64,000 nucleotides of DNA from Alteromonas sp. IB21. Lineage in GTDB: Bacteria > Pseudomonadota > Gammaproteobacteria > Enterobacterales > Alteromonadaceae. Below, piece by piece: positions 1,670 through 32,022 of the stretch. The stretch lies in the NCBI RefSeq assembly GCF_016405965.1, contig NZ_JAEFCD010000008.1, positions 1-64,000 on the forward strand, given 5' to 3'. Position 1 is the first letter of the stretch; every line of letters begins with the position of its first letter. The position numbers and the translations under genes were made by a program. The notes below the pieces were generated by a model. That model searched no databases. It had not been told where the DNA came from and saw only the letters and a program-made list of their open reading frames with translations.

Positions 1670-2905
1670 TTAGGTAACACTCTGTCTTTGCTGGAAAGTA
1701 GCGTTTTCGTAGCGTTTTTCGACCATGATGTCGCTAAGCGTTTTTACTGCTTTTTCTACATTAGTGAAGCTAAGGTAAAGAGGAGCAAACCCGATACGTA
1801 AGATATTAGGCGCTCTAAAATCGGCAATAACGCCCTCCGCTATCCATGCTTGGCAAATCGCGTATGCCTCGTCATGAGCAAGGGCAAGCTGACTCCCCCT
1901 TACATCTATAGGCGGGCTAACCAGGCTGAAATATTCTAACACGCCAGCCCTTTTTGCCTCTGCAATGAAAAAAGCCTGAAGCTTCTTTGATTTTTCATCG
2001 ACAGCCTTGAGCGACACGCCGTCAAACACATCTAACGCCGCATCTAAAATACTCATCCCAATAACACCTGGCGTTCCACATAAATTCTGCTTTACCGTGC
2101 TATCTGGTGCGTAGTCTGGAGAAAATGAAAAAGGAGCGCTATGTCCCATCCAACCGGACAATGGTTGCTTGTACTGTGCTTGGTGGCGCTCGGCAACGTA
2201 AATAAATGCAGGGGCGCCTGGACCGCCGTTTAAATATTTGTAGGTGCATCCTACTGCAAAATCGACTTCACACTCGTCAACAAAAACTGGAAACGCACCG
2301 GCACTGTGGGCGAGATCCCATAACGTTAAAATGTTCTTATCGTGTGCCTGCGCTGTAATGCTTTGCATGTCTAGTTTAAGGCCAGTTCTAAAATTTACCT
2401 GCGTGAGCATGAGGACTGCTATATCATCAGATAGCTGAGAGCCGATATTCGATTCATCGATATAGCGAACACTGTATTCATCGCCTAACAGTTCGAGCAA
2501 CCCTTGGACCATATAGATATCAGTTGGAAAATTATCACGCGTAGTAGCAATGACTTTTCGCTCGGGCCGCATTTTTAACGCAGCGCTAAGTACTTTAAAT
2601 AAATTAATAGAAATTGAGTCACAGCAAATAACCTGCCCGCTCCTAGCGCCAATTAAATACCCAATCTTGTCACCCACGTGCTGCGGCAAAGAAATCCACT
2701 GATGCTTGTTCCAGCTTGTGATGAGGTCTTGCCCCCATTGCTGTTTCACTACTTCGCTTGCGCGCGCTTCAGCTGACTTAGGTAGAGGACCAAGCGAATT
2801 CCCATCAAGATAAATGGTGTCATTTGGCAGAGAGAACGCGCCTACTTTTTTAGCAAGCGGATCTTTGTTATCAAGCTGCTCTGCGGAAAAAACCTTGTTA
2901 ATCAT
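1670..2905 (-). CDS. kynU: kynureninase
   Basis: PLP enzyme that cleaves kynurenine to anthranilate and alanine in tryptophan catabolism. The 411-residue length fits the family. Visible features are LDGNSLGPLP near the N-terminus, the WDLAHSAG segment, and the cofactor lysine in CTYKYLNGGPGAPAF (Lys223), followed by the GWMGH region and the LCGTPGV motif near the C-terminus. I place the start at the ATG at 2905 (MINKVFSAEQL), preceded by AGGTTATTGG; a longer upstream reading frame lies inside the preceding gene and is unlikely. It overlaps the last 8 bases of the upstream hydrolase gene, suggesting translational coupling. That hydrolase looks like kynurenine formamidase, so the pair would carry out successive steps from N-formylkynurenine to anthranilate. 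Confidence 0.93.
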   Translation of the reverse strand: MINKVFSAEQLDNKDPLAKKVGAFSLPNDTIYLDGNSLGPLPKSAEARASEVVKQQWGQDLITSWNKHQWISLPQHVGDKIGYLIGARSGQVICCDSISINLFKVLSAALKMRPERKVIATTRDNFPTDIYMVQGLLELLGDEYSVRYIDESNIGSQLSDDIAVLMLTQVNFRTGLKLDMQSITAQAHDKNILTLWDLAHSAGAFPVFVDECEVDFAVGCTYKYLNGGPGAPAFIYVAERHQAQYKQPLSGWMGHSAPFSFSPDYAPDSTVKQNLCGTPGVIGMSILDAALDVFDGVSLKAVDEKSKKLQAFFIAEAKRAGVLEYFSLVSPPIDVRGSQLALAHDEAYAICQAWIAEGVIADFRAPNILRIGFAPLYLSFTNVEKAVKTLSDIMVEKRYENATFQQRQSVT

Positions 2906-4088
2906 GTTCACCAATAACCTCAAGTAAAGCATCAAAAGACGTGGATTCAGGGTGTAGCCAATCAAAGTGGCCACCATTATTTATTATTCGTTTTTCTGCC
3001 CCCGCCATTGTAGCGTGCTGTAACGGCACAATGCTATCTGCATCACCTTGAAGCAATACAACCGGCGTATGAATGAGCGTCGCGCTTGGCGTCGCCTTCT
3101 GATAAGCGTCTGGATTTTCAAGCGGCTCACTCTTCATAAACTTTTCGGTCGCCGTCTGACAGCTGTTAGTGCCAAGAGCATATGAGCGGATATCGGTTAT
3201 TGACGCCAATCCAATGACTTGTTGCACTTTATAGCGTGCCAACTGTTCTGACATACGTTGCGCAGCGAGCAAGGCAAGATGGCCACCGGCAGAATGGCCC
3301 ACGATAAATATTTCTGAATAGTCACCTTGTAACGTAATACGTTCAAGTGAAGTATTTATTGCATTAACTACATCATCAAGGCTTCCCGGCCAGCCACCAC
3401 CTTCATCGCCTACTCGCCGGTATTCCATTACGTAGACACCCATCCCTAAATCCGCCAACGCGCTATACATACCCTTAGCATGCTCGTAGCCATATGCATT
3501 TAGCCAACAGCCTCCATGCACAAACACCATTGCTTTCCCGCTTAAGCCCGTGTCTAGCCCATTACGCCCATGCCAAACATAAACACGCTGCAAGGTTTCT
3601 GAGCCATAGGTAAATTGCTCATCATGTTCTCGCATTGGCAAGACACCCAACGCTGCATAGGGCACTTGCGTTAACTTTTCGTTCTGTACGGCCGCTTTTT
3701 CTTCGCTATTAACATTGAGGCTTTTTGAGTGGGTGTCTTCTTTATAGTTAGCTTTATCGTGGGTGTCTTTTGTAGAAAAAGCCGATGACCTGCTGTCTGC
3801 ATTTGTGTGGTATGCAACGTTCGAAAGCTTCACCGATGCGTCATTTCTGCTATGACCTAATAAACTGTTTGAGCCCGTGCGTTGGGTGTCATTGTAAAAC
3901 GACATTGCTGGTAGTGTTTGTGAAATGGTAAAAGAAGGAATATCTGCGAGATTAGCTACGTTCACATCAGATTGTGTCACCATGGATTGATGCGGAGACA
4001 TCTGCGGTAAAGCAACAGCAGACTTTTGAACGATACAAAGCGCTATTGAAAACCCCAAATGCTTAGACGTTTTGGCTATACTTTTCAT
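2898..4088 (-). CDS. alpha/beta hydrolase, probable kynurenine formamidase with repeat-bearing N-terminus
   Basis: A 396-residue alpha/beta hydrolase. The catalytic part starts near residue 145 and shows the oxyanion motif HGGCW (191-195), the nucleophile elbow GHSAGG (Ser266), a GDADSIVP acid region and a NGGHFDW histidine region. This HGG(C/Y)W type matches the BNA7/esterase kind of arylformamidase, and coupling to kynU supports hydrolysis of N-formylkynurenine. The first 145 residues are unusual: a hydrophobic start resembling a signal peptide, then a low-complexity, Ser/Asn/Lys-rich segment that holds DTQ (67-69) and DTH (108-110, 118-120), each encoded by a copy of the GACACCCA repeat. 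The family core is normally about 250-280 residues, so this N-terminus looks like an addition shaped by the repeat. Start ATG at 4088. Export and exact substrate are inferences. Confidence 0.75.
   Translation of the reverse strand: MKSIAKTSKHLGFSIALCIVQKSAVALPQMSPHQSMVTQSDVNVANLADIPSFTISQTLPAMSFYNDTQRTGSNSLLGHSRNDASVKLSNVAYHTNADSRSSAFSTKDTHDKANYKEDTHSKSLNVNSEEKAAVQNEKLTQVPYAALGVLPMREHDEQFTYGSETLQRVYVWHGRNGLDTGLSGKAMVFVHGGCWLNAYGYEHAKGMYSALADLGMGVYVMEYRRVGDEGGGWPGSLDDVVNAINTSLERITLQGDYSEIFIVGHSAGGHLALLAAQRMSEQLARYKVQQVIGLASITDIRSYALGTNSCQTATEKFMKSEPLENPDAYQKATPSATLIHTPVVLLQGDADSIVPLQHATMAGAEKRIINNGGHFDWLHPESTSFDALLEVIGEHD
3435..3890. repeat. TGGGTGTC repeat copies inside the formamidase-like gene
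   Basis: Five core copies were found by eye: GACACCCA at 3435-3442 and 3642-3649, TGGGTGTC at 3730-3737, 3760-3767 and 3883-3890. The last three fall in the poorly conserved N-terminal region and encode DT(H/Q) in the gene's own frame; their spacings (30 and 123) are multiples of three. The first two fall in the better-conserved part and could be chance or neutral copies. Confidence 0.8.
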
Positions 4089-5529: not shown

Positions 5530-5706
5530 CCTGTACGAAGTATGTGTCAACCAAACACTACGTTTAACTATAGCGGGATAAACCAGCTTCTTCGCTAGAA
5601 CCAAAGTGCTATTGCAGTGACACCCTCTTAATCTACAGAACTAAATTACAATGACACCCAAGTTAAATACCAGCTGTTAAACAGCGCTAAAGACAAGGTA
5701 CATGTA

Positions 5707-6114: not shown

Positions 6115-7280
6115 ATACCTCCTACCCTACATTAAATTTTGGACTTGGCGAAGACATTGAAATGCTGCGTGACCAGGTCTATCAGTTTGCCCAAAACGAA
6201 ATTGCACCTCTTGCTGAACAAGCCGATGCTGACAATCAATTTCCGAACCAGTTATGGAAAAAACTTGGTGATATGGGCCTTCTAGGCGTAACAGTCTCAG
6301 AGCAATACGGTGGCTCTGACATGGGATACCTCGCGCACACCATCGCGATGGAAGAAGTTAGCCGAGCGTCTGGCGGTATTGGTCTTAGTTATGGCGCACA
6401 TTCTAACCTTTGCGTAAACCAAATTTACAAAAACGGAAACGATGAGCAAAGAGAAAAGTATCTCCCTAAATTGGTTAGCGGCGAGCATATTGGTGCACTA
6501 GCAATGAGTGAGCCTAATGCAGGTTCAGATGTTGTCAGCATGAAATTAAAAGCCGAAAAACGCGGTGACAAGTATATTCTAAACGGTAACAAAATGTGGA
6601 TCACAAATGGTCCAGACGCGCACACCTTTGTAATTTATGCGAAAACTGACCCTAATGCAGGCGCTAGAGGCATCACGGCGTTTCTAGTAGAGCGAGATTT
6701 TCCAGGCTTTAGCCGCGCACAAAAATTAGACAAACTCGGCATGAGATCTTCGAATACGTGTGAATTAGTTTTCGAAGATTGCGAGGTGCCTGCAGAAAAC
6801 ATCCTTGGTAAAGAAGGTGAAGGCGTGCGCGTATTGATGAGCGGGTTGGATTACGAGCGACTTGTTCTATCGGGTGGCCCGCTGGGTATCATGCAATCGT
6901 GTATGGACATTGTCGTTCCTTATATCCATGACCGCCAGCAATTTGGTCAATCAATAGGCCAATTCCAGCTTGTTCAAGGCAAAGTCGCTGATATGTACAC
7001 GCAAATGAATGCTGCTCGTGCCTATGTCTACACGGTTGCACAATCCTGCGATCGCGGTGAAACAACGCGAAAAGACGCCGCTGGCGCTATTCTCTATTCA
7101 GCAGAACTTGCTACCAAGATGGCACTCGACGCAATCCAGCTACTTGGCGGTAATGGCTACATCAACGAATACCCCACAGGGCGTTTATTACGAGACGCAA
7201 AGCTATATGAGATTGGAGCAGGTACGTCTGAAATCCGCAGAATGCTTATAGGACGCGAGCTATTTAACGAATCTAAATAG
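6111..7280 (+). CDS. liuA: isovaleryl-CoA dehydrogenase
   Basis: FAD flavoprotein that oxidises isovaleryl-CoA to 3-methylcrotonyl-CoA and passes electrons to ETF. The 389-residue chain carries the acyl-CoA dehydrogenase fold: N-terminal helices, the [14 protein letters not shown] and [10 protein letters not shown] flavin/substrate motifs, and C-terminal [13 protein letters not shown] and [10 protein letters not shown]. The catalytic glutamate characteristic of isovaleryl-CoA dehydrogenases sits in [14 protein letters not shown] (Glu249). Overlap with liuR (ATGA) shows coupling. Downstream is liuB after an unusually long 231-base gap filled with repeat copies. Confidence 0.95.
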
Positions 7281-7352
7281 CAGGATTAAACGGTGTCGAC
7301 CTAAGTTTTATAGCTGGGTTGTTTTTAATATGAGTTAAAAACAACTTAGCAA

Positions 7353-7456
7353 GACACCCACGCTTTAAAGCGTTTAACAAACCTAAAGCATTACTCAATT
7401 AGAAAGACGAAATTACAAAGACACCCACTGCAACAGCATCTTTTGGCATGGGTGTC
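7353..7456. repeat. three TGGGTGTC repeat copies in the liuA-liuB gap
   Basis: Core copies at 7353-7360, 7420-7427 (both GACACCCA) and 7449-7456 (TGGGTGTC). The last two face each other across 21 bases and could pair in RNA. The 17 bases AATTACAAAGACACCCA at 7411-7427 recur exactly at 25173-25189 inside the heme oxygenase gene. Nothing else was recognised in this 231-base gap within the operon, so the repeats may cause partial termination or mRNA processing between liuA and liuB; that effect is untested. Confidence 0.85.
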
Positions 7457-7511
7457 ATGCTAACAATGGTTGATGCGGCAACGTCGCCGATGCCCAACAC
7501 AAGGAGGGGTT

Positions 7512-9119
7512 ATGCCCGTTCTTCGCTCAAGTATAAATACGAAATCTGAAACATTTATCGCTAACGCCGAGCATATGCAGGCACAGGTGAATGATCTCCT
7601 CGAAAAAATTGAACAAATATGCAAGGGTGGCGGCGAAAAAGCCGCCGAACGGCACGTATCACGAGGAAAGTTATTACCTCGTGACCGAATAAATGCACTC
7701 ATTGATGACGACACGCCATTTTTAGAAATAGGACAGCTCGCCGCATGGGAAGTGTATGATGACTACGTACCCTGTGCGGGCGTTGTTGCAGGTATAGGTA
7801 TCGTTGCTGGTATTGAGTGTATGATTGTTGCCAATGATGCCACGGTGAAAGGCGGAACCTACTACCCTCTTACGGTTAAAAAACACCTTAGAGCGCAAAC
7901 CATCGCCGAGCAGAACAATCTACCTTGCATCTACTTGGTAGACTCGGGGGGCGCTAATCTACCCCGTCAAGATGAGGTTTTCCCAGATAGAGAGCACTTT
8001 GGCCGAATATTCTTTAATCAAGCCAATATGTCAGCGAAGAACATTCCTCAAATCGCGGTCGTCATGGGCTCGTGTACCGCTGGCGGTGCTTATGTTCCCG
8101 CCATGGCTGATGAGAGCATCATTGTAAAAGAGCAAGCGACTATTTTCCTTGGAGGCCCGCCTCTGGTGAAAGCTGCCACCGGCGAAGTAGTCACCGCTGA
8201 AGAACTCGGTGGTGGTGATGTGCACACGCGCATTTCTGGTGTTGCAGATCACCTTGCCAATAACGATCATCACGCCCTTTCACTGGCCCGAAATGCGGTC
8301 TCTCGGCTTAATCGGAAAAAGCCTGAATGCGCCGATGTTGCAGACGTTAAGCCCCCTCGTTACGACACTAAAGAGATTTATGGCATTGTGCCTGCTGACA
8401 GCCGTCAAACCTATGATGTACGTGAGATCATTGCTCGCATCGTCGATGACTCTGATTTTGATGAGTTCAAATCTCTATACGGCACAACGCTCGTTTGTGG
8501 CTTTGCACGTATCTTCGGTTTCCCTGTAGGCATCGTGGCTAATAACGGCATTCTTTTTGGTGAAAGTGCGCTTAAAGGCGCGCACTTTGTTGAGCTATGC
8601 GCTAAGCGCAAAATACCTTTAGTGTTTTTGCAAAACATAACCGGCTTTATGGTGGGTAAGCAATACGAACACGGTGGCATCGCGAAACACGGCGCAAAAA
8701 TGGTTACAGCAGTAGCTTGCGCGAACGTGCCTAAACTCACTGTCCTTATCGGCGGTAGCTTTGGTGCGGGGAACTACGGGATGTGTGGAAGAGCCTACGA
8801 CCCGAGGTTTTTATTCATGTGGCCTAATGCTCGTATCTCGGTTATGGGTGGTGAGCAAGCGGCAGGAGTTTTAGCTCAAGTCAAACGCGACCAAAAAGAG
8901 CGTGCTGGTGAAACATGGAGCAATGAAGAAGAAAGGACATTCAAACAACCTGTAATCGATACCTACGAAAAGCAAGGTCACCCCTACTACGCATCGGCAA
9001 GGCTTTGGGACGATGGCGTCATTGACCCTGCGGATACGCGTTTAGTGCTTGGGCTGTCTCTTTCGGCATCGCTCAACAAGCCTATTGAAGACACCCAATT
9101 TGGCATATTCAGAATGTAG
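7512..9119 (+). CDS. liuB: methylcrotonyl-CoA carboxylase, carboxyltransferase subunit
   Basis: Beta subunit of 3-methylcrotonyl-CoA carboxylase, moving CO2 from biotin to 3-methylcrotonyl-CoA to give 3-methylglutaconyl-CoA. The 535-residue protein has the two crotonase-like halves of carboxyltransferases; visible are the [51 protein letters not shown] and [22 protein letters not shown] motifs. I chose the ATG at 7512 because AAGGAGG lies at 7501-7507; the frame is open upstream to 7470 but without such support. It works with liuD. One GACACCCA copy (9090-9097) lies in its last codons, encoding EDTQ. Confidence 0.95.
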
Positions 9120-9130
9120 GAGTACAGATT

Positions 9131-9931
9131 ATGGAACAATCAGTTATTTATAGCGTAGATGAAAGAAACGTAGCCACGGTCACATTAAACAGACCAGAAA
9201 AGCATAATGCTTTTGACGATGAAATGATCAATGAACTCACCCGTGTGTTTAGAAAAGCAGGGGAAGATTCAACAGTACGAGCGCTTATTCTTAGGGCTGA
9301 AGGAAAAAGCTTTAGCGCTGGTGCAGATCTGAACTGGATGAAAAGAATGGCCAGTTTTACCAAAGAGCAAAACGAAAGTGATGCTTTAGCGCTAGCGGTA
9401 ATGCTGCAGACACTTTACGAAATGCCAAAACCAACCATCGCCAGGGTTCAAGGTGCCGCTTTCGGTGGTGCTGTAGGTTTAATCGCCTGTTGTGACATCG
9501 CCATTGGAAGCAAGCTCAGTAAGTTTTGTCTAAGTGAAGTAAAAATTGGCCTTACCCCTGCGACCATAAGCCCCTATGTGGTAGAGGCGATAGGAACGCG
9601 CGTTAGCCGACGCTATTTCCAAACAGCAGAAGTATTCTCTGCCCGTCGGGCCCGACGACTGGGTCTACTTAGTGAGTCAGTGACCGAAGATGAACTCGAC
9701 AGTACCATCGATAACCTTTTATCAAACATTCTCAAAAATGGCCCTCAAGCAGTGGCGAAAGCTAAGAGTTTAGTTCAATGGGTGTCTACGCAAGAAATTA
9801 ACGACTCGCTTCTTTCAGAAACTAGCAAGCTGATTGCTGAAGTGAGAACGTCTGAAGAAGGTCAGGAAGGTTTATCCGCCTTCCTAGAGAAACGCAGTGC
9901 TTCGTGGGTAGAGGTGAAAAATGATAAATAA
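9131..9931 (+). CDS. liuC: 3-methylglutaconyl-CoA hydratase
   Basis: Enoyl-CoA hydratase/isomerase family member of 266 residues that hydrates 3-methylglutaconyl-CoA to HMG-CoA. Family motifs are NRPEKHNAFD, the oxyanion segment GKSFSAGADLNWM, and AAFGGAVGLIACCDIAI followed by LSEVKIGLTPATISPYV. Its place between the two carboxylase subunit genes is the standard liu order and decides the assignment among crotonases. Its last 11 bases overlap liuD. A TGGGTGTC copy (9779-9786) encodes part of QWVSTQ, in the variable C-terminal part. Confidence 0.92.
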   Translation: MEQSVIYSVDERNVATVTLNRPEKHNAFDDEMINELTRVFRKAGEDSTVRALILRAEGKSFSAGADLNWMKRMASFTKEQNESDALALAVMLQTLYEMPKPTIARVQGAAFGGAVGLIACCDIAIGSKLSKFCLSEVKIGLTPATISPYVVEAIGTRVSRRYFQTAEVFSARRARRLGLLSESVTEDELDSTIDNLLSNILKNGPQAVAKAKSLVQWVSTQEINDSLLSETSKLIAEVRTSEEGQEGLSAFLEKRSASWVEVKNDK

Positions 9932-11933
9932 ACTATTAATCGCAAACCGCGGTGAAATTGCTTGCCGCGTTATCAAGACAGCCAACGCTCAGGGCATCAA
10001 AACAGTTGCTGTTTACTCCGAAGCAGATAAAAACGCGCAACACGTAAAAATGGCAGATGAGGCTGTTTTTCTGGGGCCCTCACCGTCAAAAGAGAGTTAC
10101 CTACGTGGCGAGTTAATCGTTGAAAAAGCCAAAGAACTCGGTGTAGATGCCATTCACCCAGGGTATGGCTTTCTCTCTGAAAATGCCGAGTTTGCGAACC
10201 TTTGTGCTAAGAACGATATTATTTTCGTGGGCCCACCAGCTTCTGCGATCGAAGCTATGGGGTCTAAATCTGCTGCGAAACACATCATGGAGCAAGCCGG
10301 CGTTCCCTTAGTGCCGGGCTATCATGGAGATGAGCAAAGCGAAGCTGTGTTAAAAGGCGCGGCTGATGACATGGGCTACCCGGTACTACTAAAAGCAGCT
10401 GCAGGCGGCGGTGGTAAGGGAATGCGTCAAGTCTGGAACGCAGATGAATTCTCGCAAGCGTTAAATGCAGCTAAACGTGAGTCAATGGCAAGCTTTGGCG
10501 ACGATCATATGCTGGTTGAGAAGTATCTCACTCGTCCTCGCCACGTTGAAATCCAAGTTTTCTGTGACACCCATGGTAACGGTGTATACCTGTTTGAGCG
10601 CGACTGTTCAGTGCAACGCAGACATCAGAAAATTATAGAAGAAGCGCCTGCTCCTAATATGTCTCCCTCAGTTAGAGAAAAAATGGGTGAAGCAGCAATC
10701 TTAGCTGCAAAAGCAATAAATTATGTGGGTGCAGGCACCGTCGAGTTTTTATTGGATGAAGACGAATCTTTCTATTTTATGGAAATGAACACGCGTTTGC
10801 AGGTTGAGCACCCTGTTACAGAGATGATTACTCGCGAGGATTTGGTTTATTGGCAGTTAGTCATAGCCGAGGGTAAGCCATTACCTAAAAAACAAAATGA
10901 GCTTACATTAACAGGACACGCATTCGAAGCCCGTATTTATGCTGAAGATCCAAGTAACGAGTTCTTGCCTTCTACAGGCAACCTAGCGTTACTTCGTACG
11001 CCGAAAGAGACCGATGTTGTCCGAGTTGACACCGGCGTGGTTGAAGGCGATGACGTGAGCGTTTTCTACGACCCCATGATTGCGAAACTTGTTGTATGGG
11101 GCGAGAACCGAGAAATCGCACTAAAGCGCTTACTTAGTGCGCTGAGCGAATACTATATTGATGGCGTTAGTACAAATATCGACTTCCTAAAGCGAGTAGC
11201 TGGCCACCCTGCCTTCGTTTCTGCTGAACTTACAACTACATTTGTAGAAAAACATCATGATTCCTTGTTTTATTCAGCCGCAAGCGTTGACACCCACGAA
11301 AATATTCCAGTGATGGCGTTACTAGCATTATTACACAGAAAGAAAAATGCCAAGGATGCAGCTAAGACGCCATCTGTATGGTCAGGAGCAGGTGCTTGGA
11401 GAGCAAACAGTCAACATTCTGAATCCCTTACCTTACTGTGTGATCAGAAAGAAATGAATGTTGACGTTAAGCATCAAAGTGAAGGGGTAACATACAGTTT
11501 CGATTTAACCTTAGACGACAACAATTATAACGTAACTGGTTCGATTGCTGATGGCGTTTTACATGCCACCATCGATGGGTATAAAACGGCATATACATTT
11601 TCGGAAAACGATGACGAATATACGCTTTTTAACAAAGACACCCATTCTAAGTTCACCGTCATTTCCCCTTCCCTAGGCGATGAAAGTAACGCAGATGATG
11701 ATGCGAACTTTAGCGCCCCAATGAACGGGACCATTGTTGCTCATTTGGTAGAAAAGAATCAGGCGGTTAAAAAAGGACAACCTATATTGGTAATGGAAGC
11801 GATGAAGATGGAGCATTGCATTACCGCACCTTACGATGGCTCAGTTGAGGAATTCTTCTTTCAACCGGGCGAACTCGTTGACGGAGGTTCAACCTTATTG
11901 GCTTTTTCTTCGAAAGAAGCTGACGAGGGCTAG
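9921..11933 (+). CDS. liuD: methylcrotonyl-CoA carboxylase, biotin carboxylase/carrier subunit
   Basis: Alpha subunit of 3-methylcrotonyl-CoA carboxylase, 670 residues. Domains in order: biotin carboxylase N-terminal (LLIANRGEIACRVIKTA), ATP-grasp with glycine loop AAAGGGGKGMR and EMNTRLQVEHPVTE, C-terminal carboxylase domain, a BT-like linker, and a biotinyl domain with EAMKMEH (biotinylated Lys629). The start ATG overlaps liuC and follows GAGGTG. The region between about residues 450 and 590 is variable and holds two GACACCCA copies encoding VDTHEN (11289-11296) and NKDTHSK (11637-11644); a third at 10566-10573 encodes DTHGN within the conserved ATP-grasp domain. Confidence 0.95.
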   Translation: MINKLLIANRGEIACRVIKTANAQGIKTVAVYSEADKNAQHVKMADEAVFLGPSPSKESYLRGELIVEKAKELGVDAIHPGYGFLSENAEFANLCAKNDIIFVGPPASAIEAMGSKSAAKHIMEQAGVPLVPGYHGDEQSEAVLKGAADDMGYPVLLKAAAGGGGKGMRQVWNADEFSQALNAAKRESMASFGDDHMLVEKYLTRPRHVEIQVFCDTHGNGVYLFERDCSVQRRHQKIIEEAPAPNMSPSVREKMGEAAILAAKAINYVGAGTVEFLLDEDESFYFMEMNTRLQVEHPVTEMITREDLVYWQLVIAEGKPLPKKQNELTLTGHAFEARIYAEDPSNEFLPSTGNLALLRTPKETDVVRVDTGVVEGDDVSVFYDPMIAKLVVWGENREIALKRLLSALSEYYIDGVSTNIDFLKRVAGHPAFVSAELTTTFVEKHHDSLFYSAASVDTHENIPVMALLALLHRKKNAKDAAKTPSVWSGAGAWRANSQHSESLTLLCDQKEMNVDVKHQSEGVTYSFDLTLDDNNYNVTGSIADGVLHATIDGYKTAYTFSENDDEYTLFNKDTHSKFTVISPSLGDESNADDDANFSAPMNGTIVAHLVEKNQAVKKGQPILVMEAMKMEHCITAPYDGSVEEFFFQPGELVDGGSTLLAFSSKEADEG

Positions 11934-11937
11934 CAGC

Positions 11938-12834
11938 ATGTTTCCAAAAAAAGTAAGCATTGTTGAAGTGGGTCCACGTGATGGCTTGCAAAATGAAAAA
12001 TTGGCATTAACTGCCTCTCAAAAAATTAAACTTATTGAGTTACTTTCAGATACAGGTTTGAAGCGCATAGAGGCCGGAAGTTTTGTATCACCTAAATGGG
12101 TGCCTCAGATGGCCAACTCCGGTGAAGTATTCAAAGCATTGAATGCACGAGAAGGAATTCAGTATTCTGCCCTCACACCGAATCTCAGAGGGCTAGAGGC
12201 TGCGATTGAGTCAGGAGTAAAGGAGGTAGCGGTATTTGGCGCAGCAACTGAGTCGTTTTCACAGAAAAACATTAACTGCTCAATAAGCGAAAGCTTAAAG
12301 CGTTTCGAGGCCGTGTTCAGCATGGCTAACGAAAATGACATAAAAGTGAGAGGCTATGTCTCGTGCGTAATGGGATGCCCTTACGAGGGTGAAGTTTCCC
12401 CCGAAGCTGTGTCTAAAGTAAGCAAATCAATGATTGATATGGGATGTTATGAAGTTTCTTTAGGCGACACCATTGGTGTAGGCACACCATTAAAAACGCG
12501 CCTCTTGCTAGAGAGCGTATTGAATGAGGTCACTGTCGACAAGCTGGCAGCACATTTTCACGACACATACGGACAGGCACTCGTAAATTTATACACTGCA
12601 CTTGAGTATGGTGTATCAACTATTGACTCTGCTGTTGCAGGCCTTGGCGGCTGTCCATATGCAAAAGGAGCGAGTGGAAATGTTGCTACTGAAGATGTGC
12701 TCTATATGCTTGATGGCATGGGTGTCTCTACAGGAGTTGATATGAAAAGCTTGCTTAAGGCATCTTCATACATCTCTGACACACTGGGCCGCGCGCCTAT
12801 TTCAAAGGTTGCTAATGCTCTACTCGCGAAATAG
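11938..12834 (+). CDS. liuE: hydroxymethylglutaryl-CoA lyase
   Basis: TIM-barrel lyase that splits HMG-CoA into acetyl-CoA and acetoacetate, the last step of leucine breakdown. The 298-residue chain has VEVGPRDGLQNE at the start, the metal ligands in HFHDTYGQALVN, and the GLGGCPYAKGASGNVATED signature containing the active-site cysteine. I used the ATG at 11938, four bases after the liuD stop and preceded by GAGGG; the longer frame from 11836 lies within liuD. It ends the operon; downstream is a 508-base repeat-rich gap with a weak hairpin (GCGTGC at 12847 and GCACGC at 12861) lacking a T-tract. Confidence 0.95.
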   Translation: MFPKKVSIVEVGPRDGLQNEKLALTASQKIKLIELLSDTGLKRIEAGSFVSPKWVPQMANSGEVFKALNAREGIQYSALTPNLRGLEAAIESGVKEVAVFGAATESFSQKNINCSISESLKRFEAVFSMANENDIKVRGYVSCVMGCPYEGEVSPEAVSKVSKSMIDMGCYEVSLGDTIGVGTPLKTRLLLESVLNEVTVDKLAAHFHDTYGQALVNLYTALEYGVSTIDSAVAGLGGCPYAKGASGNVATEDVLYMLDGMGVSTGVDMKSLLKASSYISDTLGRAPISKVANALLAK

Positions 12835-13342
12835 TTGTTGGGGATTGCGTGCTTGAAAACGCACGCTCCTCAATCATATAAGAGCCTACAAGCAAGCCAG
12901 TGCAAAAAACACTGGGTCAAGAGACACCCAACACAAATTTATTTTTTACAAGACACCCACTGTATAGTCGCTCTGGTGTTATTAGTGCTTTTGGTATGTT
13001 GGAAATTTCCACATGTAAGACATGGAATTCTGTTCTATAAAAGCAGTTAAAACGACGTTACGCTGGGTGTCTTTAATGTTTCTTTTCTTTACTACTAGCA
13101 ATGGATGTCATTGTAATTCACTAACATTGGATGCATTAAAAGCTTCTATTTGCTTTATCACGCAACGTCGCTCAGACAACACAAACAATAGTGGGTGTCT
13201 TCTTTACGCTCAAACAATAGTGGGTGTCTTCTTTACGCTTTTTCTCGTTACATCTGTACTTAAACTGTGCTTTCAGTCAGGTCACAAGACGCACTAAACG
13301 TTGCTATGGTCATGCGACCCTATGTTTATTTGATAATGTAAA
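12835..13342. repeat. repeat-rich gap upstream of the RAYT gene
   Basis: This 508-base gap holds five TGGGTGTC-type cores: GACACCCA at 12923-12930 and 12952-12959, then TGGGTGTC at 13064-13071, 13192-13199 and 13221-13228. Orientation switches from one strand to the other in the middle. The two small open frames crossing it (12835-13050, 13022-13297) have no recognisable product and are broken up by repeat sequence, so I do not call them genes. It is the densest intergenic cluster of the repeat, in the direct 5' flank of the HUH transposase-like gene. Confidence 0.85.
13182..13239. repeat. perfect 29-bp tandem duplication carrying the repeat
   Basis: Two identical 29-base units (13182-13210 and 13211-13239) start with CAAACAATAG and contain TGGGTGTCTTCTTTACGCT. 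Each carries one core copy. The perfect identity points to a recent local duplication, showing how the repeat number can grow. Confidence 0.9.
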
Positions 13343-14320
13343 ATGGCTCAAAGTAGAAAATCTTTAATAAGCCTTGAAGACACTCCCTATTATCACTGCA
13401 TTTCACGGTGCGTTCGTCGAAGCTACCTTTGTGGCTATGATGCAAAAAGCGATGTTAGCTACGAGCACAGAAAGTCGTGGGTAGAAAAAAGGCTCCTGTT
13501 TCTAGGTAAAATATTCGCAATTGATATCTGTGCATATGCCGTTATGAGTAACCATGTGCACATAGTGCTATGTGTCGGCAAAAAAATGGCCCTCTCCTGG
13601 ACTTTGGATAATGTATTGCTGCAATGGCATAAAATGCATAAAGGAACGCTACTTACCAGAAAGTATTTAAAAGGCGAATCGGTAAGTGAGAGTGAACTAA
13701 AAACAATACAAAACACTGCTGAAATTTACAGGAAAAGACTCCACGATATTAGCTGGTTCATGAGGAACCTTAACGAGTATATTGCCAGGAAAGCCAATAC
13801 AGAAGATGGCTGTACAGGGCGATTTTGGGAGGGCCGATTCCGTTCTCAAGCCCTGTTGACTGAAAAGGCGGTATTGTCTTGCATGGCCTATGTCGATTTG
13901 AATCCAATACGAGCGAAAGCGGCCACTAATCTGCATGATTCCTTCTACACTAGTATAAACAGAAGATTGCGATACAACGCTAAAAGTGAGCGCATAAAAG
14001 TACTAATGCCGTTTAAACATCCCGCACTCGTTAACACTAATCGCATCATTAATTTTACTTTGGCAGATTATCGTGAGCTACTTAAGTCCTCAATAGACAT
14101 AATGCATGGCAGTCTTTCATCTTCCAAAGTAACCAAACTCAACAGCACGTTGACAATGCTTGGTGTAAATCAACCCAACTGGCTCCAAATAATTACAAAC
14201 TTTGAAAACACTTTTTCCTTTGCCGCGGGAGATCGTGAATCCATGATGCTTTTCAAGCAAAACACAAATAGAAAAAGAATAGCAAAACTCAAGTCTGCAG
14301 CTTCATGCTTCGACGGTTAG
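13343..14320 (+). CDS. REP-associated tyrosine transposase (RAYT)-like Y1 HUH protein
   Basis: A 325-residue protein of the IS200-like Y1 transposase superfamily, RAYT type. Visible are the opening SLEDTPYYHCISRCVRR strand, the metal-binding HUH motif NHVHIVL (His71, His73), a probable catalytic tyrosine in MRNLNEYIARKAN (Tyr146), then GRFWEGRFRSQ and AYVDLNPIRAK, all typical of RAYTs. Such proteins nick single-stranded DNA at short, hairpin-forming repeats and are linked to the spread of REP sequences; they lack mobile ends and are usually single-copy domesticated genes. No terminal inverted repeats or partner TnpB were seen here. The segment between the HUH and tyrosine motifs is long (about 70 residues). 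The 5' flank is the densest intergenic TGGGTGTC cluster in the window, making that repeat a candidate substrate. The ATG at 13343 has only a weak ribosome site. It is tail-to-tail with the MFS gene, 4 bases apart. Confidence 0.85.
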   Translation: MAQSRKSLISLEDTPYYHCISRCVRRSYLCGYDAKSDVSYEHRKSWVEKRLLFLGKIFAIDICAYAVMSNHVHIVLCVGKKMALSWTLDNVLLQWHKMHKGTLLTRKYLKGESVSESELKTIQNTAEIYRKRLHDISWFMRNLNEYIARKANTEDGCTGRFWEGRFRSQALLTEKAVLSCMAYVDLNPIRAKAATNLHDSFYTSINRRLRYNAKSERIKVLMPFKHPALVNTNRIINFTLADYRELLKSSIDIMHGSLSSSKVTKLNSTLTMLGVNQPNWLQIITNFENTFSFAAGDRESMMLFKQNTNRKRIAKLKSAASCFDG

Positions 14321-14324
14321 CCTG

Positions 14325-15479
14325 CTATTTTTCATTGGGTAGTATCGCCGTGGCTAAAATCGCTAATAAAAGCATTACCGCCATTATATAGACGACTGTA
14401 AAAGCTAGAACGGATGACAAAAATGCGTAAATCGCGCCAAAACCAAGGAGAATAAGCCCGATCGCCGTGTTAGAGAAGCCAACAAGTTCAGTTCTTTCAT
14501 GCCCTTCCTTCACATCCAGGCTATATGTTTTCCTTCCTGTTCTAACTCCCGCGTGCGCTATCGATAACACAAAAAATAAAAGCGCCGATATGAAAATAGG
14601 CGTCGCCTCTAAGGAAAGTAGTCCAATGCATGCGATTAACGCTAGAACCCCAGAAACCTGAAGGGTGAGCTTTGCACTCTTATCTGCTATTTTGCCCCAG
14701 ATTATCGACGATAGCAGCGCTGCCAATGCTTCAGCGCCAATATAAATCGGCAATAATTCTTGCACATCGCCGTTGCGCTCAGTCATGAAGTAGGGTGCAA
14801 CCAACGCAGAGTGAACGAACAACCCTCTAACAAAAATAAATTTATAGACGGTAGAGTCGAAATTAACACTGAAAGAGTTACGTGACTTATCACCAGTATA
14901 CACACGCGTTTTGATAGGCCATACACAGACTAAAGTCAAACTAAACGATAGCAGACTCGCACACAAGATGACTAAAAGCGTGTTTGAAGAAAACGCTCCT
15001 TCAAAAACAACGAGAGGTATAGCAATACATAAAGTTACCAGCCCCGAAATAGTCGAAGCAATTCCAATTAAATTACCTCGTTGCCCCTTTTTTACTACGT
15101 CTGCCTCAATGTCCTTGACCGTTAAAGAACACGCCGAACGACCTATACTGAGAATGACAAGGGACAGTAAAACACCTATCCCAGCTTTAAATCCAGAAAA
15201 CAGAATCACGAATACTATAATTCCAACGATTGAGAAAGCTTGAATGAGCATACCTACACGCCAAACTTTGTGTCTATCCGCATGATTTCGAAGGTAAATA
15301 CTTATGAGCACCTGAGGAAGAAGCGCGCCAGACTCTCGTATTGGCACCAACCAACCGATCATCCAAACAGGGGCGCCAACACTCACTAGAAGTGCTGTCA
15401 GCGTAGTTTTGGCGGATATTAAAAGGTCGGCTAATTTGTTGAGCGATAAGCCTAAGATGAGTCGTTTTTTTTGATTCAT
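14325..15479 (-). CDS. MFS-type membrane transporter
   Basis: Hydrophobic protein of 384 residues with roughly twelve membrane spans and MFS-like organisation (two six-helix halves, basic loop segments such as NHADRHKVWR and WGKIADKSAKLT). The substrate is not recognisable. I prefer the ATG at 15479 (MNQKKRLILG); a GTG at 15506 in the same frame would add nine residues, and neither has a good ribosome site. The gene ends 4 bases from the RAYT stop, with no room for a terminator. It may be accessory DNA in the same repeat-rich segment. Confidence 0.7.
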   Translation of the reverse strand: MNQKKRLILGLSLNKLADLLISAKTTLTALLVSVGAPVWMIGWLVPIRESGALLPQVLISIYLRNHADRHKVWRVGMLIQAFSIVGIIVFVILFSGFKAGIGVLLSLVILSIGRSACSLTVKDIEADVVKKGQRGNLIGIASTISGLVTLCIAIPLVVFEGAFSSNTLLVILCASLLSFSLTLVCVWPIKTRVYTGDKSRNSFSVNFDSTVYKFIFVRGLFVHSALVAPYFMTERNGDVQELLPIYIGAEALAALLSSIIWGKIADKSAKLTLQVSGVLALIACIGLLSLEATPIFISALLFFVLSIAHAGVRTGRKTYSLDVKEGHERTELVGFSNTAIGLILLGFGAIYAFLSSVLAFTVVYIMAVMLLLAILATAILPNEK

Positions 15480-16082: not shown

Positions 16083-16616
16083 CTGAGAATCCCAATCCAA
16101 GTTAGCCATCCAAATATAACATTTGATTAACATTTGTCACCTAAAGATTAAGCTCCTTGGAACACATGAAATCCTTATATCTATCGCAAGACACCCAACC
16201 TCGACAAATAGAAGGTTGGGTGTCTTGCTAACTCCTTACTAGCAACTTCCTATCGTAGGTGTCTCGGCAAGTGGCTGGTAATCGCTCAATTTACAAAAGC
16301 TTCGATTGGGTGTCTCGCTACACTTTTTTACTTGCCCCCTAACTACAAAATTGGCTTCGACAAGCGTTAAAATGGGTGTCTTCGTACAGGGACTCATACA
16401 ACAACAAACAAAATTTTAAATAATTTTACTATTTCATCACAAAGACTATTAATCACACTGTCATTCTAAAATATCTTGTGTAATATGGAGTTATGTTATC
16501 AAAACGTACCTCGAATTAGAGGTTCAATGTATAGCGCTATCAATCGCAACACTTCGCTTTCTTTTTATATTTCTATCGATATTCAACTATCGCTTTTTGA
16601 CAGGAGTTTATAGGAA
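16083..16616. other. 534-base gap with repeat hairpins upstream of glgC
   Basis: Holds no gene. It carries four repeat cores: 16190-16197 (GACACCCA), 16217-16224, 16307-16314 and 16373-16380 (TGGGTGTC), plus a near copy TAGGTGTC at about 16257. The remaining 230 bases before glgC are AT-rich and probably hold its promoter and leader. Confidence 0.7.
16186..16228. repeat. inverted pair of repeat copies forming a perfect 16-bp hairpin
   Basis: Left arm GCAAGACACCCAACCT (16186-16201) and right arm AGGTTGGGTGTCTTGC (16213-16228) are exact reverse complements with an 11-base loop. Each arm contains one core. The arms match beyond the core, so the pair probably arose by inverted duplication or is kept as a structure. 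On the minus strand a GGAG tetranucleotide lies 3 bases before the stem, as in REP sequences; this may be chance. It could also work as a terminator, though no T-tract follows. Confidence 0.9.
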
Positions 16617-24587: not shown

Positions 24588-24689
24588 GTGTTTTTACCTA
24601 TCTTTAAATTTGCCGCAAGTATACCCGCACCATGATTAGGTGCAATGCAATAAACGCGAAAAAATCCCGCACGCTCTACCCTTTGTAAA

Positions 24690-24735
24690 GACACCCATGA
24701 TAAAGTCATTGAACAACGTTTTACAAAGACACCCA
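24690..24735. repeat. two TGGGTGTC-type repeat copies
   Basis: GACACCCA at 24690-24697 and 24728-24735, both in the same orientation and preceded by TTGTAAA and TTACAAA, 38 bases apart. They lie in the region between the divergent DUF2750-like and heme oxygenase genes. A perfect GTAACGTTAC palindrome at 24764-24773 lies between them and the heme oxygenase start. Confidence 0.8.
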
Positions 24736-24821
24736 CGATTACCATGTAAGAAAGACATACAAAGTAACGTTACATAAAATCAATGACACAACTGCCAATA
24801 CAACGCGAAGAACAGTAAGCC

Positions 24822-25541
24822 ATGCGAAATCTTTTCCCTGCTCTTAAGCAAGACACCCAAGCAAGCCATACTGCTTTAGAAAATACGTTCCCCTTTTCGA
24901 TTTATCACCACAAACACCGGTTTAATAAGACAGCGTATTGCGCGGTACTTTCAATTATGAAGGAATTTCATCAAACGTCCGCTGATGTAATAAAGCAAGC
25001 AAGAGATACAGATGTAACGCTAGCTCAAATAGTCACGATGATTGACAGCAAGACGGTGTTGACGGCTATTAGCGAAGATATCCATACGCTAGAAGCAAAA
25101 AGCCAACTATTAAGTGAAACACATGACGCGCTTTACATAGACACCCACCCGCTTTACATAGACACCCATGCCAATTACAAAGACACCCACGTTAATTCAA
25201 GTTTTTCACCTACCTTTAATTCGCCAACAACCTCTGCGATAGCTGCCATCTACGTTTGGCTCGGCTCATCCATGGGGGCAAATATCATTGCAAGAAGATT
25301 AAACGAAATGGAGCAAGCTATTCCTACTCATTACTATCAAGCCATGTCCGAATGTGCGAAATCGTGGGTGTCTTTCAAACAAAATGTCGATGCATTCCTG
25401 CCAGAACTGGCTCTCAATAATGAAAACGTTGTGGATGATATCGTGCAGGATGCTAACGCTTGGTTCGAATACTTAATTAATTTAGGCGTGCAGTTTCAAG
25501 CAAAGCCTTCTTCAAACAATGTTAGAGTTGATCCGCTTTAG
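24822..25541 (+). CDS. biliverdin-producing heme oxygenase with repeat-encoded insert
   Basis: A 239-residue heme oxygenase family protein that opens heme to biliverdin, CO and iron. The N-terminal LKQDTQASHTALENTFPF gives the proximal heme ligand candidate His16, and AAIYVWLGSSMGANIIARRL (about 141-160) is the distal helix. No phytochrome gene is adjacent, so a role in iron use or a distant photoreceptor is open. Between helices lies an insert (about residues 100-130) with three DTH units (107-109, 114-116, 121-123) seven residues apart, encoded by GACACCCA copies, so it should be a surface loop. Two further copies fall at 24852 (KQDTQ) and 25365. Start ATG 24822. Confidence 0.85.
   Translation: MRNLFPALKQDTQASHTALENTFPFSIYHHKHRFNKTAYCAVLSIMKEFHQTSADVIKQARDTDVTLAQIVTMIDSKTVLTAISEDIHTLEAKSQLLSETHDALYIDTHPLYIDTHANYKDTHVNSSFSPTFNSPTTSAIAAIYVWLGSSMGANIIARRLNEMEQAIPTHYYQAMSECAKSWVSFKQNVDAFLPELALNNENVVDDIVQDANAWFEYLINLGVQFQAKPSSNNVRVDPL
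25140..25189. repeat. three repeat cores in 21-base spacing inside the heme oxygenase gene
   Basis: GACACCCA at 25140-25147, 25161-25168 and 25182-25189, exactly 21 bases apart, so the reading frame is kept and each encodes DTH. The last copy lies in a 17-base string identical to one between liuA and liuB (7411-7427), which shows that the repeat, not protein selection, explains the similarity. Confidence 0.9.
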
Positions 25542-30570: not shown

Positions 30571-32022
30571 TTATTCGTTTTGAAGCGCTTGTGAAGGCGC
30601 AATTTTCATCGCTTTTCGCGCTGGATATACACTGGCTATCACGCAAAGCAGCAAAGAAAGCAGAGTAATGCTAGCAATTTGTACTGCATCCATTTCTACA
30701 GGCAGTCCGCTTCCATCCGCAGCTAACGCCAAAGGCGAACCGATCAGATCCAAAAAGTTATTCAACTGTAAGGTGACGACAATGCCTAAGATTAATCCAA
30801 TCCCCGCACCTTTTAACCCATTGAATAGCCCGTTGAGCACGAAGATCCACATAATAGTTGTTGGCACCATACCCTGGGTTTGAAGCACCGCAATATCTCC
30901 CTGCTTTTCGGTGACTACCATTACCAGCGCAGACACGATGTTAAACGCGGCCACTGCGATAATGAGTAAAAGCATGAGTGTCATCATGTTCTTTTCCATC
31001 TTAACCGCATCGAATAGTGGCCCCTGACGTTCACGCCAGGTTCTAACGTTGTTTGCAAAGACACCCATCGTATCGGTGAGATAATTGACAACCGACAAAT
31101 AGTCAAATGCATCATTTAAAAAGAGGCGAAGTGACTGTCCGTTTCCTTTAGGGTCGCGCATTAAACGGTTCACATCGTGAAGGTTCATGTACATCACCTT
31201 ATCGTCCATTTGCGACCCCATATCGAAGACACCCACCACAGTAACAAGTCGCTGACTGGGCATGCGACCAAAAGGCGTATAAACACTAGCCCCGGCCACC
31301 ATGACACGTAATCTATCACCCACTCTCACATCCAATTTTATGGCAAGCGCACGACCAATTATTGCGGCAAAACTACCTTCCTTTAAGTCGTCAAATCGCC
31401 CTTGCTCCATATGGCTTGCAACCAAGGTATGCGCCAACATCACCCCAGGTTCCACACCGTGTACTTGCACACCTCTCAGTTCAGAGCGAGATTGCACAAC
31501 GGCTTCTGCTTCTCTATAAGCCATGCTGGCTACAACACCATCGATGGGTGTCTTGCTAATTTCATCTAAAGTAACGTACTGCTGTTGAGGCACATTTTCG
31601 TTGGGTGTCTCGCTAAGACTTCCACTATTAAACGTGGGTGTCTCGCTAATTCTTGATGTTGCAGTGGGTGTCTCTGTAACTCCAGTCGAGTTGCTGACGG
31701 TTGAACTATTTTGCGTGGGTGTCTTTCCAACGTTGTTGTTATTTTGTGTGGGTGTCTTCGTAATTTCGATGGGTGTCTTGCTAAGGTCGATATTTGAAGT
31801 GGGTGTCTCTGTAATTTCGATATGGGGCACTATGCCTAAAATGCGTTGTTTCAACTGCCCTTCTAGGCCGTTCATTACCGAAACTACAATGATAAGGGCC
31901 ATCAGGCCAAGTGCGATGCCGGCCACCGAGAAGCGATTTATAAAAGAGACAAAACTGGTTTGGCTTTGTTTGCTAGATTTGGCATAACGATAGGCAATGA
32001 ATGCAGAAAGAGGATAAAACAT
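30571..32022 (-). CDS. LolC/LolE-type lipoprotein-release permease with repeat-coded insert
   Basis: A 483-residue FtsX-like ABC permease. N-terminal FIAYRYAKS...FSVAGIALGLMALIIVVSVMNGLEGQLKQRILGIVPHIEI (first span and start of the periplasmic loop) and the C-terminal three spans (MTLMLLLIIAVAAFNIVSALVMVV; LFNGLKGAGIGLILGIVVTLQL; ASITLLSLLLCVIASVYPARKAMKIAPSQAL) are typical of LolC/E, which pass outer-membrane lipoproteins from the inner membrane to LolA. The usual length is about 410; here about 90 residues (71-160) form a low-complexity Thr/Pro/Asn/Ser insert with eight TP(T/I/N) units, encoded by TGGGTGTC copies on the plus strand. The insert lies early in the large periplasmic loop. No LolD ATPase gene is adjacent. 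Start ATG 32022. Confidence 0.82.
   Translation of the reverse strand: MFYPLSAFIAYRYAKSSKQSQTSFVSFINRFSVAGIALGLMALIIVVSVMNGLEGQLKQRILGIVPHIEITETPTSNIDLSKTPIEITKTPTQNNNNVGKTPTQNSSTVSNSTGVTETPTATSRISETPTFNSGSLSETPNENVPQQQYVTLDEISKTPIDGVVASMAYREAEAVVQSRSELRGVQVHGVEPGVMLAHTLVASHMEQGRFDDLKEGSFAAIIGRALAIKLDVRVGDRLRVMVAGASVYTPFGRMPSQRLVTVVGVFDMGSQMDDKVMYMNLHDVNRLMRDPKGNGQSLRLFLNDAFDYLSVVNYLTDTMGVFANNVRTWRERQGPLFDAVKMEKNMMTLMLLLIIAVAAFNIVSALVMVVTEKQGDIAVLQTQGMVPTTIMWIFVLNGLFNGLKGAGIGLILGIVVTLQLNNFLDLIGSPLALAADGSGLPVEMDAVQIASITLLSLLLCVIASVYPARKAMKIAPSQALQNE
31545..31807. repeat. eight-copy TGGGTGTC repeat array in the Lol permease gene
   Basis: TGGGTGTC cores start at 31545, 31602, 31635, 31665, 31716, 31749, 31770 and 31800. 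Every spacing (57, 33, 30, 51, 33, 21, 30) is a multiple of three, keeping the reading frame of the minus-strand gene, in which the core encodes TP within K/ETP(T/I/N). After the core most copies read CTCGCTAA, CTTGCTAA, TTCGTAA or CTCTGTAA, the same extension as in intergenic copies. GACACCCA copies at 31060 and 31228 lie in the conserved part of the gene. Confidence 0.9.

Follow-up and report, generated by a model that had tools for sequence, protein, structure and literature searches.

The 64,000-nucleotide stretch of Alteromonas sp. IB21 DNA analysed here (contig NZ_JAEFCD010000008.1, positions 1 to 64,000; referred to as the window) carries a gene at 13343-14320 (+) for a REP-associated tyrosine transposase (RAYT; REP, repetitive extragenic palindromic sequence), which lies within a cloud of short directional sites that share the word TGGGTGTC. 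Sequence analysis establishes that the sites are local to the gene, that RAYTs have private words, that one protein residue is associated with the word, and that the sites are conserved in excess of their flanks, an excess lost in one lineage from which the gene has gone. Locality, private words, the residue-word association and conservation together argue for a cognate, cis-confined RAYT-site system, and we consider it probable that a directional word is read partly through residue 160 and that nearby copies are maintained in a RAYT-dependent way.

A local cloud of sites surrounds the RAYT gene

The site consensus is TGGGTGTCT(T), which is directional, has a partial T-rich or TAA tail, and shows no self-complementarity. 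There are 26 copies of TGGGTGTCTT in the window against 0.06 expected, and 44 copies of TGGGTGTC, 27 of which are within eight open reading frames (ORFs) having homologues in relatives. The complete 4.54-Mb genome has 38 copies of TGGGTGTCTT, 28 of them on the RAYT contig, and eight copies of the reversed pattern. A genome-wide REP-like repeat was considered and rejected because the copies concentrate around the RAYT. The same concentration is seen in three single-contig relatives, where 19 of 23, 36 of 47 and 34 of 41 copies are no more than 32 kb from the orthologous RAYT (expected 0.3-0.6). Across 12 genomes the site density is 1.3/kb within 2 kb of the gene and 0.6-1.1/kb out to 20 kb, then 0.4/kb at 20-25 kb, 0.15/kb at 25-30 kb, 0.32/kb at 30-35 kb, and zero at 35-40 kb (23 kb examined).

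RAYT matches are present in 51 of 59 congeneric genomes (1-19 each among the matches listed), and among those listed the RAYT could be placed beside a 3-hydroxy-3-methylglutaryl-CoA (HMG-CoA) lyase gene in 18 genomes; 33 have matches elsewhere or unplaced and eight have none. The correlation between RAYT presence and repeat number that the sequence-only reading had proposed to look for is evident, with 16-47 copies of TGGGTGTCTT (median 35) in the 18 genomes with a placed RAYT and 2-14 (median 7, reversed-pattern controls being similar) in the eight without a match. Near the lyase landmark itself there are 25-57 copies of TGGGTGTC in 13 RAYT-containing genomes (60-160 kb each) but only 1, 1, 3 and 0 in four genomes with no RAYT there (40-60 kb each). 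In genome G007 a related RAYT and its cloud are at 2536 kb and the lyase landmark is at 1820 kb; the cloud thus follows the gene rather than the landmark. We also note that a cluster in G012 (C24 197608-198421), which was compared with locus L038 (G000 C1:76664-77717), is ~19 kb upstream of the RAYT, and that its counterpart in the genome of the window is on another contig, separated from each contig end by over 55 kb, with four copies of TGGGTGTCTT kept; this displacement is probably an inserted island or a rearrangement.

Other RAYTs have words of their own

We examined 100 RAYT neighbourhoods, a first set of 20 and then 80 named ones in Alteromonas, Paraglaciecola, Shewanella, Colwellia, Marinomonas, Pseudoalteromonas and others. 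De novo counts of 8-mers in the first 20 neighbourhoods reveal local clouds of TGGGTGTCT, TGGGTGTCC, TGCCTGTCTT and TGACTGTC, with three of the 20 lacking a clear word, and paralogous RAYTs have their own local clouds of the related word TGNNTG[T/G]C. The clouds are not mixed within a genome. One example is G022, which has 57 copies of TGGGTGTC and three of TGCCTGTC in 80 kb at one RAYT, and none and 13 respectively in 20 kb around another. The word TGNNTGNC is enriched in 46 of the 100 neighbourhoods, base 7 being T or G wherever the enrichment is significant; the corresponding count is four in 100 reversed sequences and zero in 16 RAYT-free segments. Word labels, with 'none' treated as one label, are clustered on a 100-row tree (99 loci plus the window; L118 was left out as no RAYT protein of at least 220 amino acids was extracted), requiring 26 changes where shuffled labels average 43.5, and none of 200 shuffles gave a number as low. 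Some loci (e.g. L168) do have the word in one cluster, as chance or a tandem-repeat artefact might produce, but that explanation is refuted for the window by the copy number relative to expectation, and it is further countered by the 35 of 46 enriched loci whose words form three or more clusters separated by over 1 kb and by a residue-word code that largely held in a held-out set (see below); we give it almost no credence.

Several neighbourhoods have features of their own. L211 (G015 C23:243700-263600) has the largest cloud examined within 10 kb on either side, its 20 kb containing 35 TGGGTGTC and nine TGGATGTC. In L106 (G047 C1:2614400-2634300) a TGCC-type RAYT at 7000-9000 is amid short repeats (60-150 bp) that are dispersed in relatives and are perhaps an integron cassette array. 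Strongly repeated 8-mers outside TGNNTG[TG]C are near the RAYTs of L114, L132, L134, L144, L150, L154, L161 and L168 (e.g. GTAAGCTG, 18 times in L134, and CTTCGAAG, 16 times in L150), and these could be either tandem arrays or additional word classes.

Residue 160 largely predicts base 4 of the word

Residue 160 lies in CTG-R/H-FWEGRF, two positions before W162-E163. Among the labelled rows it is Arg in all 22 RAYTs with TGGGTGTC (GG.T), and His in nine of ten with TGCC (CC.T), all three with TGAC (AC.T) and the one with TGGC (GC.T); two TGAG rows are mixed and the single TGAT row has Arg. The rule 'H160 with C at base 4, otherwise not' fits 43 of 47 labelled rows. The two RAYTs of the sister pair L103/L104, both in G007, have Arg and His at this position and the words TGGG and TGCC (GG/CC) respectively, and four to five of six phylogenetically independent pairs agree with the association, with none or one opposed. 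The available text on E. coli TnpA-REP places the residues recognising GTAG between W94 and R104 (PMC6006769), and W162-E163 would correspond to W94-Q95 of that protein, judging from the common W-E/Q motif.

A prediction was recorded before a further 40 neighbourhoods of the same genus were fetched, of which eight were dropped because an earlier RAYT matches theirs at 99% identity or more. Twenty-six of the 32 loci counted are significant (one of 32 reversed controls was positive), and 25 of the 26 clearly fit the residue-160 rule, the other being a tie. Base 4 is C in 13 of 13 held-out H160 loci, and at the R160 loci it is G in 12 and A in one (tied with a C word). The pooled count of TGGGTGTC is 178 at held-out R160 loci against 5.7 expected, and seven at H160 loci against 6.4. 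Residue 160 therefore appears, from these alignments, to predict the word to a large extent, Arg going mostly with G at base 4 and His with C. Two RAYTs with Y160, in L233 (G000 C5:87086-87973) and L232 (G001 C23:272640-273542), have five and six copies of TGTCTGTC within 1.5 kb, and are possibly a third residue-word class (Tyr, TC).

Sites are retained where the RAYT is present

Site retention was measured by comparing aligned site 8-mers with flanking 8-mers starting 28-84 bp away, and sites outside the alignment were dropped (e.g. 11 of 41 from G021 to G001). In 17 comparisons between RAYT-containing genomes, which are not independent, 79-97% of sites are intact versus 15-43% of flanking 8-mers. 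At a second RAYT locus (L105, L130, L145; six comparisons) 62 of 71 sites are kept against 28-55% of flanks, and all ten locus pairs that qualified for summing (more than 8 kb aligned, at least three aligned sites and less than 97% identity) give 74 of 90 kept, with flanks at 37%.

One genome, G001, cleanly lacks the window RAYT and the upstream cluster, such that the lyase gene is closely followed by a transporter gene. None of the RAYT matches that G001 does have is of the R160 type: one has H160 and TGCC words, another has Y160, and a distant one has T160. Of the sites in its sister G021 (87% identical), 17 of 30 are kept in G001, which is not different from the flanks (42%, p 0.14), whereas the more distant RAYT-containing G029 keeps 26 of 28 (Fisher p 0.002 versus G001). 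A similar picture is given by 11 gap-free coding sites, chosen as alignable and intact in the window: seven near relatives with the RAYT keep 9-11, G001 keeps seven, and the RAYT-less G042, G039, G016 and G031 keep 0 of 11, 1 of 9, 0 of 7 and 0 of 7 respectively. Two of the three changes at sites intact in G021 and broken in G001 are synonymous, and at site 31228 the near clade has GTG GGT GTC (VGV) where G001 has GTG GGT GTA. Protein constraint alone thus does not explain site maintenance, and, as far as these alignments go, site retention seems to need the RAYT. Persistence of the repeat in relatives without this RAYT had been named in the sequence-only reading as grounds for abandoning the link. 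RAYT-less genomes have background counts, and one sister lineage (G001) does keep a remnant, which is decaying. We looked for a second natural loss by searching five relatives with the flanking DNA of three other RAYT loci and found none; the first flank is kept in all five, each with a RAYT ~1.1 kb away, and mostly short pieces were recovered with the other two.

Because the sites are constrained and located both within and between genes, they could be thought of as serving the host in regulation or chromosome structure (as an operator or a nucleoid motif) and as lying near the RAYT by coincidence. The word changes with residue 160 of the RAYT, however, the clouds accompany each RAYT to different loci, and RAYT-less genomes have only the background counts noted above, so that a host function of this type seems very improbable.

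A number of observations weigh against a cognate system maintained by its RAYT. In 54 of the 100 neighbourhoods no word reaches significance by itself within 10 kb, although these loci are still enriched when pooled: the 42 with R160 have 92 copies of TGGGTGTC against 14.4 expected and 50 of TGGGTGGC against 29.5, and the ten with H160 have one TGGGTGTC against 2.9, 11 TGCCTGTC against 3.6 and 29 TGGGTGGC against 5.4. The TGGGTGGC class is mixed at residue 160 (six Arg, two His), four of the 47 labelled rows break the code (three with H160 and no C, one with R160 and C), and the paired phylogenetic test on the first set, with six pairs, gives p 0.06-0.125, a sign test of this size being unable to reach 0.05. 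In the held-out set the word is exactly TGGGTGTC in just 11 of 13 significant R160 loci; L227 has TGAGTGTC, and L200 is the tie, with TGGATGTC and TGACTGTC equally enriched. Contrary to the prediction, held-out R160 loci also have a weaker excess of TGGCTGTC (34 versus 11.1) and TGACTGTC (20 versus 6.6), and the held-out RAYTs, all from the same genus, are 52-91% identical to earlier ones. As for retention, L109/L190 keep just three of four and three of six sites, and the test is underpowered for the TGCC family. Some more distant RAYT-containing genomes keep few of the coding sites (G014 four of 11, G034 six of 11, and G047, G025 and G058 one of eight), and the last three have their own sites elsewhere. 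Compared with more distant genomes, G001 is still above its flanks (e.g. G024 to G001, 11 of 18 versus 0.14), an excess that is expected after a recent loss but makes G001 less than a clean null. Finally, a single recent loss lineage was found, and RAYT-dependence rests on that one natural deletion.

Arrangement of sites in the window

The five TGGGTGTCT cores that the sequence-only reading placed in the 5′ flank of the RAYT are at 12922(-), 12951(-), 13064(+), 13192(+) and 13221(+), within a cluster of mixed orientation at 12921-13230 (7-mer starts 12923(-), 12952(-), 13065(+), 13193(+) and 13222(+)), and the perfect 29-bp tandem duplication it described is present at 13182-13239 (+), with one core per unit. 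It had also taken this flank to be the densest repeat cluster, a distinction that belongs to the FtsX/MacB-type permease ORF at 30571-32022(-), whose cluster (31058-31809) comprises 31060(-), 31228(-) and eight plus-strand sites at 31546-31801; the eight cores at 31546-31807 span ~260 bp, and most are in a hypervariable in-frame loop. This loop (amino acids 70-160) consists of in-frame KTPTQN/SETPT-type units encoded by site arrays, and its length and composition vary widely among aligned species.

To the left of the RAYT, the alpha/beta-hydrolase ORF at 2898-4088(-) contains a cluster at 3433-3892 (3435(-), 3642(-), 3731(+), 3761(+), 3884(+)), three sites of which fall in a hypervariable in-frame loop. 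There is a single TGGGTGTC site at 5651-5660(-), a cluster at 7351-7458 (7353(-), 7420(-), 7450(+)), and single sites at 9088-12727 (9090(-), 9780(+), 10566(-), 11289(-), 11637(-), 12720(+)) in conserved genes of the biotin carboxylase/methylcrotonyl-CoA carboxylase and HMG-CoA lyase types and their neighbours. To the right are clusters at 16188-16382 (16190(-), 16218(+), 16308(+), 16374(+)) and 24688-25374 (24690(-), 24728(-), 24852(-), 25140(-), 25161(-), 25182(-), 25366(+)), the latter with five sites in ORF 24822-25541, followed by an outlying site at 37573-37582(-) and another at the cloud edge (43850-43859(-)). A TGGGTGTC at 56017-56026(-) is outside the cloud and is probably background. 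No Rfam family reaches its gathering score anywhere in the window.

Neighbouring sites no more than 600 bp apart are mostly in the same orientation, and where they are opposed the order is usually minus then plus. There are 74 minus-plus and six plus-minus pairs in the 14 genomes with such pairs, which are orthologous and not independent, and 33 versus nine over 47 loci (binomial p 3e-4). The first two sites of the 16188-16382 cluster (16188-16226) fold as a 16-bp hairpin (-18.8 kcal/mol, z -8.6); three other pairs that were folded are less striking (z -2.1 to -3.7).

Origins of the sites

Sites differ among genomes in several ways. A comparison of G047, G058 and G025 reveals single-base differences (TGGATGTC versus TGGGTGTC), a 28-bp unit repeated exactly in tandem, and variable regions in which sequence turns over, and in the window in-frame units fill the hypervariable loops of the permease, the alpha/beta hydrolase and the small protein encoded at 24822-25541. 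In conserved genes, many other sites show substitutions relative to RAYT-less genomes and no insertion.

One explanation of the cloud is that it is the footprint of short-range transposition, the RAYT copying short units into nearby single-stranded DNA as local REP-like mobile repeats, a scenario put forward for REPs around rayt genes once these have arrived. Variable intergenic regions and in-frame loops do gain and lose whole units, and there are precedents, at least in the accessible parts of the reports, in the preferential formation of REPs near rayt genes (Nunvar 2010) and in the Marinomonas REPs, which are concentrated near tnpA and were read as a recent arrival (Corneloup 2021). This would not account for the many conserved-gene sites that differ from RAYT-less genomes by substitution without insertion, and the spacers between sites are, by eye, mostly unrelated. 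Moreover, the RAYT is beside the HMG-CoA lyase gene also in species whose RAYTs are merely 52-56% identical, and because the locus is shared down to 52% identity a recent arrival does not fit and does not explain the cloud. We therefore regard short-range transposition as unlikely. 'Repeat-mobilising', as the sequence-only reading characterised the possible system, is not supported as the main process, since many conserved-gene copies arose or were kept by substitution without insertion and the cloud is confined to ~30 kb.

Alternatively, single-stranded oligomers released by the RAYT could anneal to near-matches and overwrite them, a form of concerted evolution. Such conversion would act locally, and both the maintained near-identity of sites and substitution-type differences such as TGGATGTC versus TGGGTGTC are in its favour, but where coding sequence is conserved the sites agree with the core and often lack, by eye, the TAA-type tail of the variable regions, and a 9-bp match is presumably very short for homology-driven conversion. 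We consider conversion a poor candidate, with little probability of being the main process. Transposition and conversion can explain the arrays, and account less well for substitution-born sites in genes with conservation at the synonymous level.

The RAYT protein

The 325-residue product of ORF 13343-14320 is a RAYT/TnpA-Y1 HUH protein (subclass 2.3-like) with H71/H73, R160, W162-E163, Y183 and N187. It has the HVH motif named in the sequence-only reading, whose assignment of the protein to the RAYT-type HUH proteins is supported by motifs and fold. Standard models detect the protein weakly, since both profile scores are under their cut-offs (Pfam Y1_Tnp, 19.5 bits versus 23; NCBIfam REP_Tyr_transpos, REP-associated tyrosine transposase, 36.7 bits versus 80). 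An AlphaFold model built from 31 sequences (mean pLDDT, predicted local distance difference test, 87) matches the REP-bound RAYT in PDB 4er8 (Foldseek E 1.3e-3, probability 1.00), and the structural alignment to 4er8_A has a Z of 11.5 and a root-mean-square deviation of 3.3 over 158/165 residues. The HuH motif and a Y---NP tyrosine motif on an IS200-type fold are those of a RAYT/TnpA-REP (Y1 HUH, class 2). Y1_Tnp is the only Pfam family listed for the protein, and the C-terminal part, where the TIRYTs discussed below have a DnaA-like helix-turn-helix, is helical in the model.

In an alignment of 47 RAYTs, H71, H73, W162, E163, Y183 and N187 are unchanged. Tyr146, named as the catalytic tyrosine from the sequence alone, is at a variable position (Tyr in 19, Pro in 16, Phe in seven, other in five), and from this alignment the catalytic tyrosine is therefore assigned to Y183 in the YVDLNP motif. 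The HuH motif is NHVH, the middle residue being V, T, I or L among aligned relatives. Two further RAYTs in the host genome are 48-49% identical to that in the window. An IS200/IS605 element was considered and rejected given the YVDLNP motif, the divergence of these other RAYTs and the fixed locus.

Comparison with known systems

Subclass 2.3 of TnpA-Y1 is described in the available text of Quentin et al. 2018 (PMC6006769) as having a median of ~325 amino acids, a W-E motif, YVDLNP, and several diverged copies per genome in Alteromonadales. The window RAYT shares this length, W162-E163, YVDLNP, the host order and the diverged multi-copy state, and on sequence features it fits with subclass 2.3. 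It differs at the level of the HuH consensus, given there as NHYH, and in having cognate local sites where the survey, according to the same text, found no REP-like sequences with subclasses 2.1 and 2.3 by automatic and manual searches. Since such sites are found here, the description of the subclass is corrected and membership is not excluded.

The REPtrons (RAYT groups 2 and 3 with REPs, REPINs (REP doublets forming hairpins) and BIMEs (bacterial interspersed mosaic elements)) have in common with the window the HUH/Y1 fold, one private repeat class per RAYT, an inverted repeat arrangement and, in some species, repeats that are denser near the gene, as described in the accessible portion of PMC8266576. 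REPs are by that account usually genome-wide, and the window sites differ in having no GTAG/GGAG foot and no palindrome in the unit, in not being genome-wide, in lying inside genes in 27 of 44 cases, and in being kept by point substitution. The sequence-only reading was thus right that the repeat is not a classical REP or REPIN: the unit has neither the GT[AG]G foot nor the palindromic stem, and the repeat is not high-copy, genome-wide or extragenic. REPs inside genes have been described in what is available of PMC3733652, and a local concentration of REPs is noted for Thauera in the accessible text of PMC2817692.

The nearest case with a G-rich motif, among the sources as available, appears to be the TIRYTs (Di Nocera et al. 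2013, PMC3733652), which are likewise RAYT-like, without GTAG repeats and with a short G-rich motif, there GGGGWSAS in flanking repeats. In the TIRtron a terminal inverted repeat brackets the gene, whereas here there are tens of sites over ~50 kb, and a repeat search of 12400-14700 found no inverted pair bracketing 13343-14320, the next downstream sites starting at 16188. IS200/IS605 elements have the HUH/Y1 catalytic fold in common with the window RAYT, and a single-strand chemistry would be expected here, but they have hairpin ends, near-identical mobile copies and Y---Q in place of Y---NP, and the window RAYT has no near-identical copies in the genome and is at the same locus across species. 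The Rickettsia palindromic elements are similar in that in-frame repeats are tolerated in protein-coding genes, and differ in being palindromic and in that no RAYT is named for them in the accessible text of PMC3733652. No published description of these sites was found in the open-licence literature, judged by titles and the beginnings of abstracts. The proposal that they are an undescribed RAYT substrate is upheld in so far as the association supports a cognate sequence; the role of substrate is a putative one.

Proposed mechanism and implications

The cognate, cis-confined system that we favour could operate as follows. The RAYT, whose fold is that of a single-strand HUH/Y1 nickase-ligase, would recognise a short directional word with a readout that includes residue 160, such that R160 would read TGGGTGTC, sister enzymes, mostly with H160, would read TGNCTGTC, and a third class, TGGGTGGC, would be read with either residue. 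Clusters are usually minus-strand then plus-strand, so inverted copies could pair as hairpins in single-stranded DNA, and the RAYT probably reads its word in single-stranded or hairpin DNA like its fold relatives, and by analogy with them presumably binds and cuts it there. New copies would come from local tandem duplication, from turnover of variable sequence (intergenic regions and in-frame loops) and, in conserved genes, from single substitutions, and copies would accumulate solely within ~20-30 kb of the gene for their own enzyme. We infer that they are then kept by RAYT-linked selection, with the putative benefit that sites help the RAYT-bearing segment to persist or recombine. Selection linked to the gene would explain why nearby sites alone are retained, and locality may result either from linkage or from action of the protein close to where it is encoded.

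A broader proposal, which we advance tentatively and with some doubt, is that the subclass-2.3 RAYTs may form an extensive and so far unrecognised class of cis-acting HUH enzymes, either selfish or domesticated, in which each member has a private ~50 kb domain of tens of directional sites under RAYT-dependent selection even at synonymous positions in conserved genes, and follows a one-residue code (Arg at 160 with G at base 4, His and perhaps Tyr with C) that has switched repeatedly.

These findings bear on what RAYTs do and on why cells keep them. A RAYT subclass described as repeat-free has a repeat, with features that classical REPtrons lack, namely strict locality, sites inside genes, apparently enzyme-dependent constraint and a specificity code of nearly one residue. 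The sites are short, and comparative genomes allow their origin and loss to be dated. Binding, cleavage and the cause of maintenance can be tested directly with one point mutation and the natural deletion lineage, and the L103/L104 pair would be a good one for a specificity swap.

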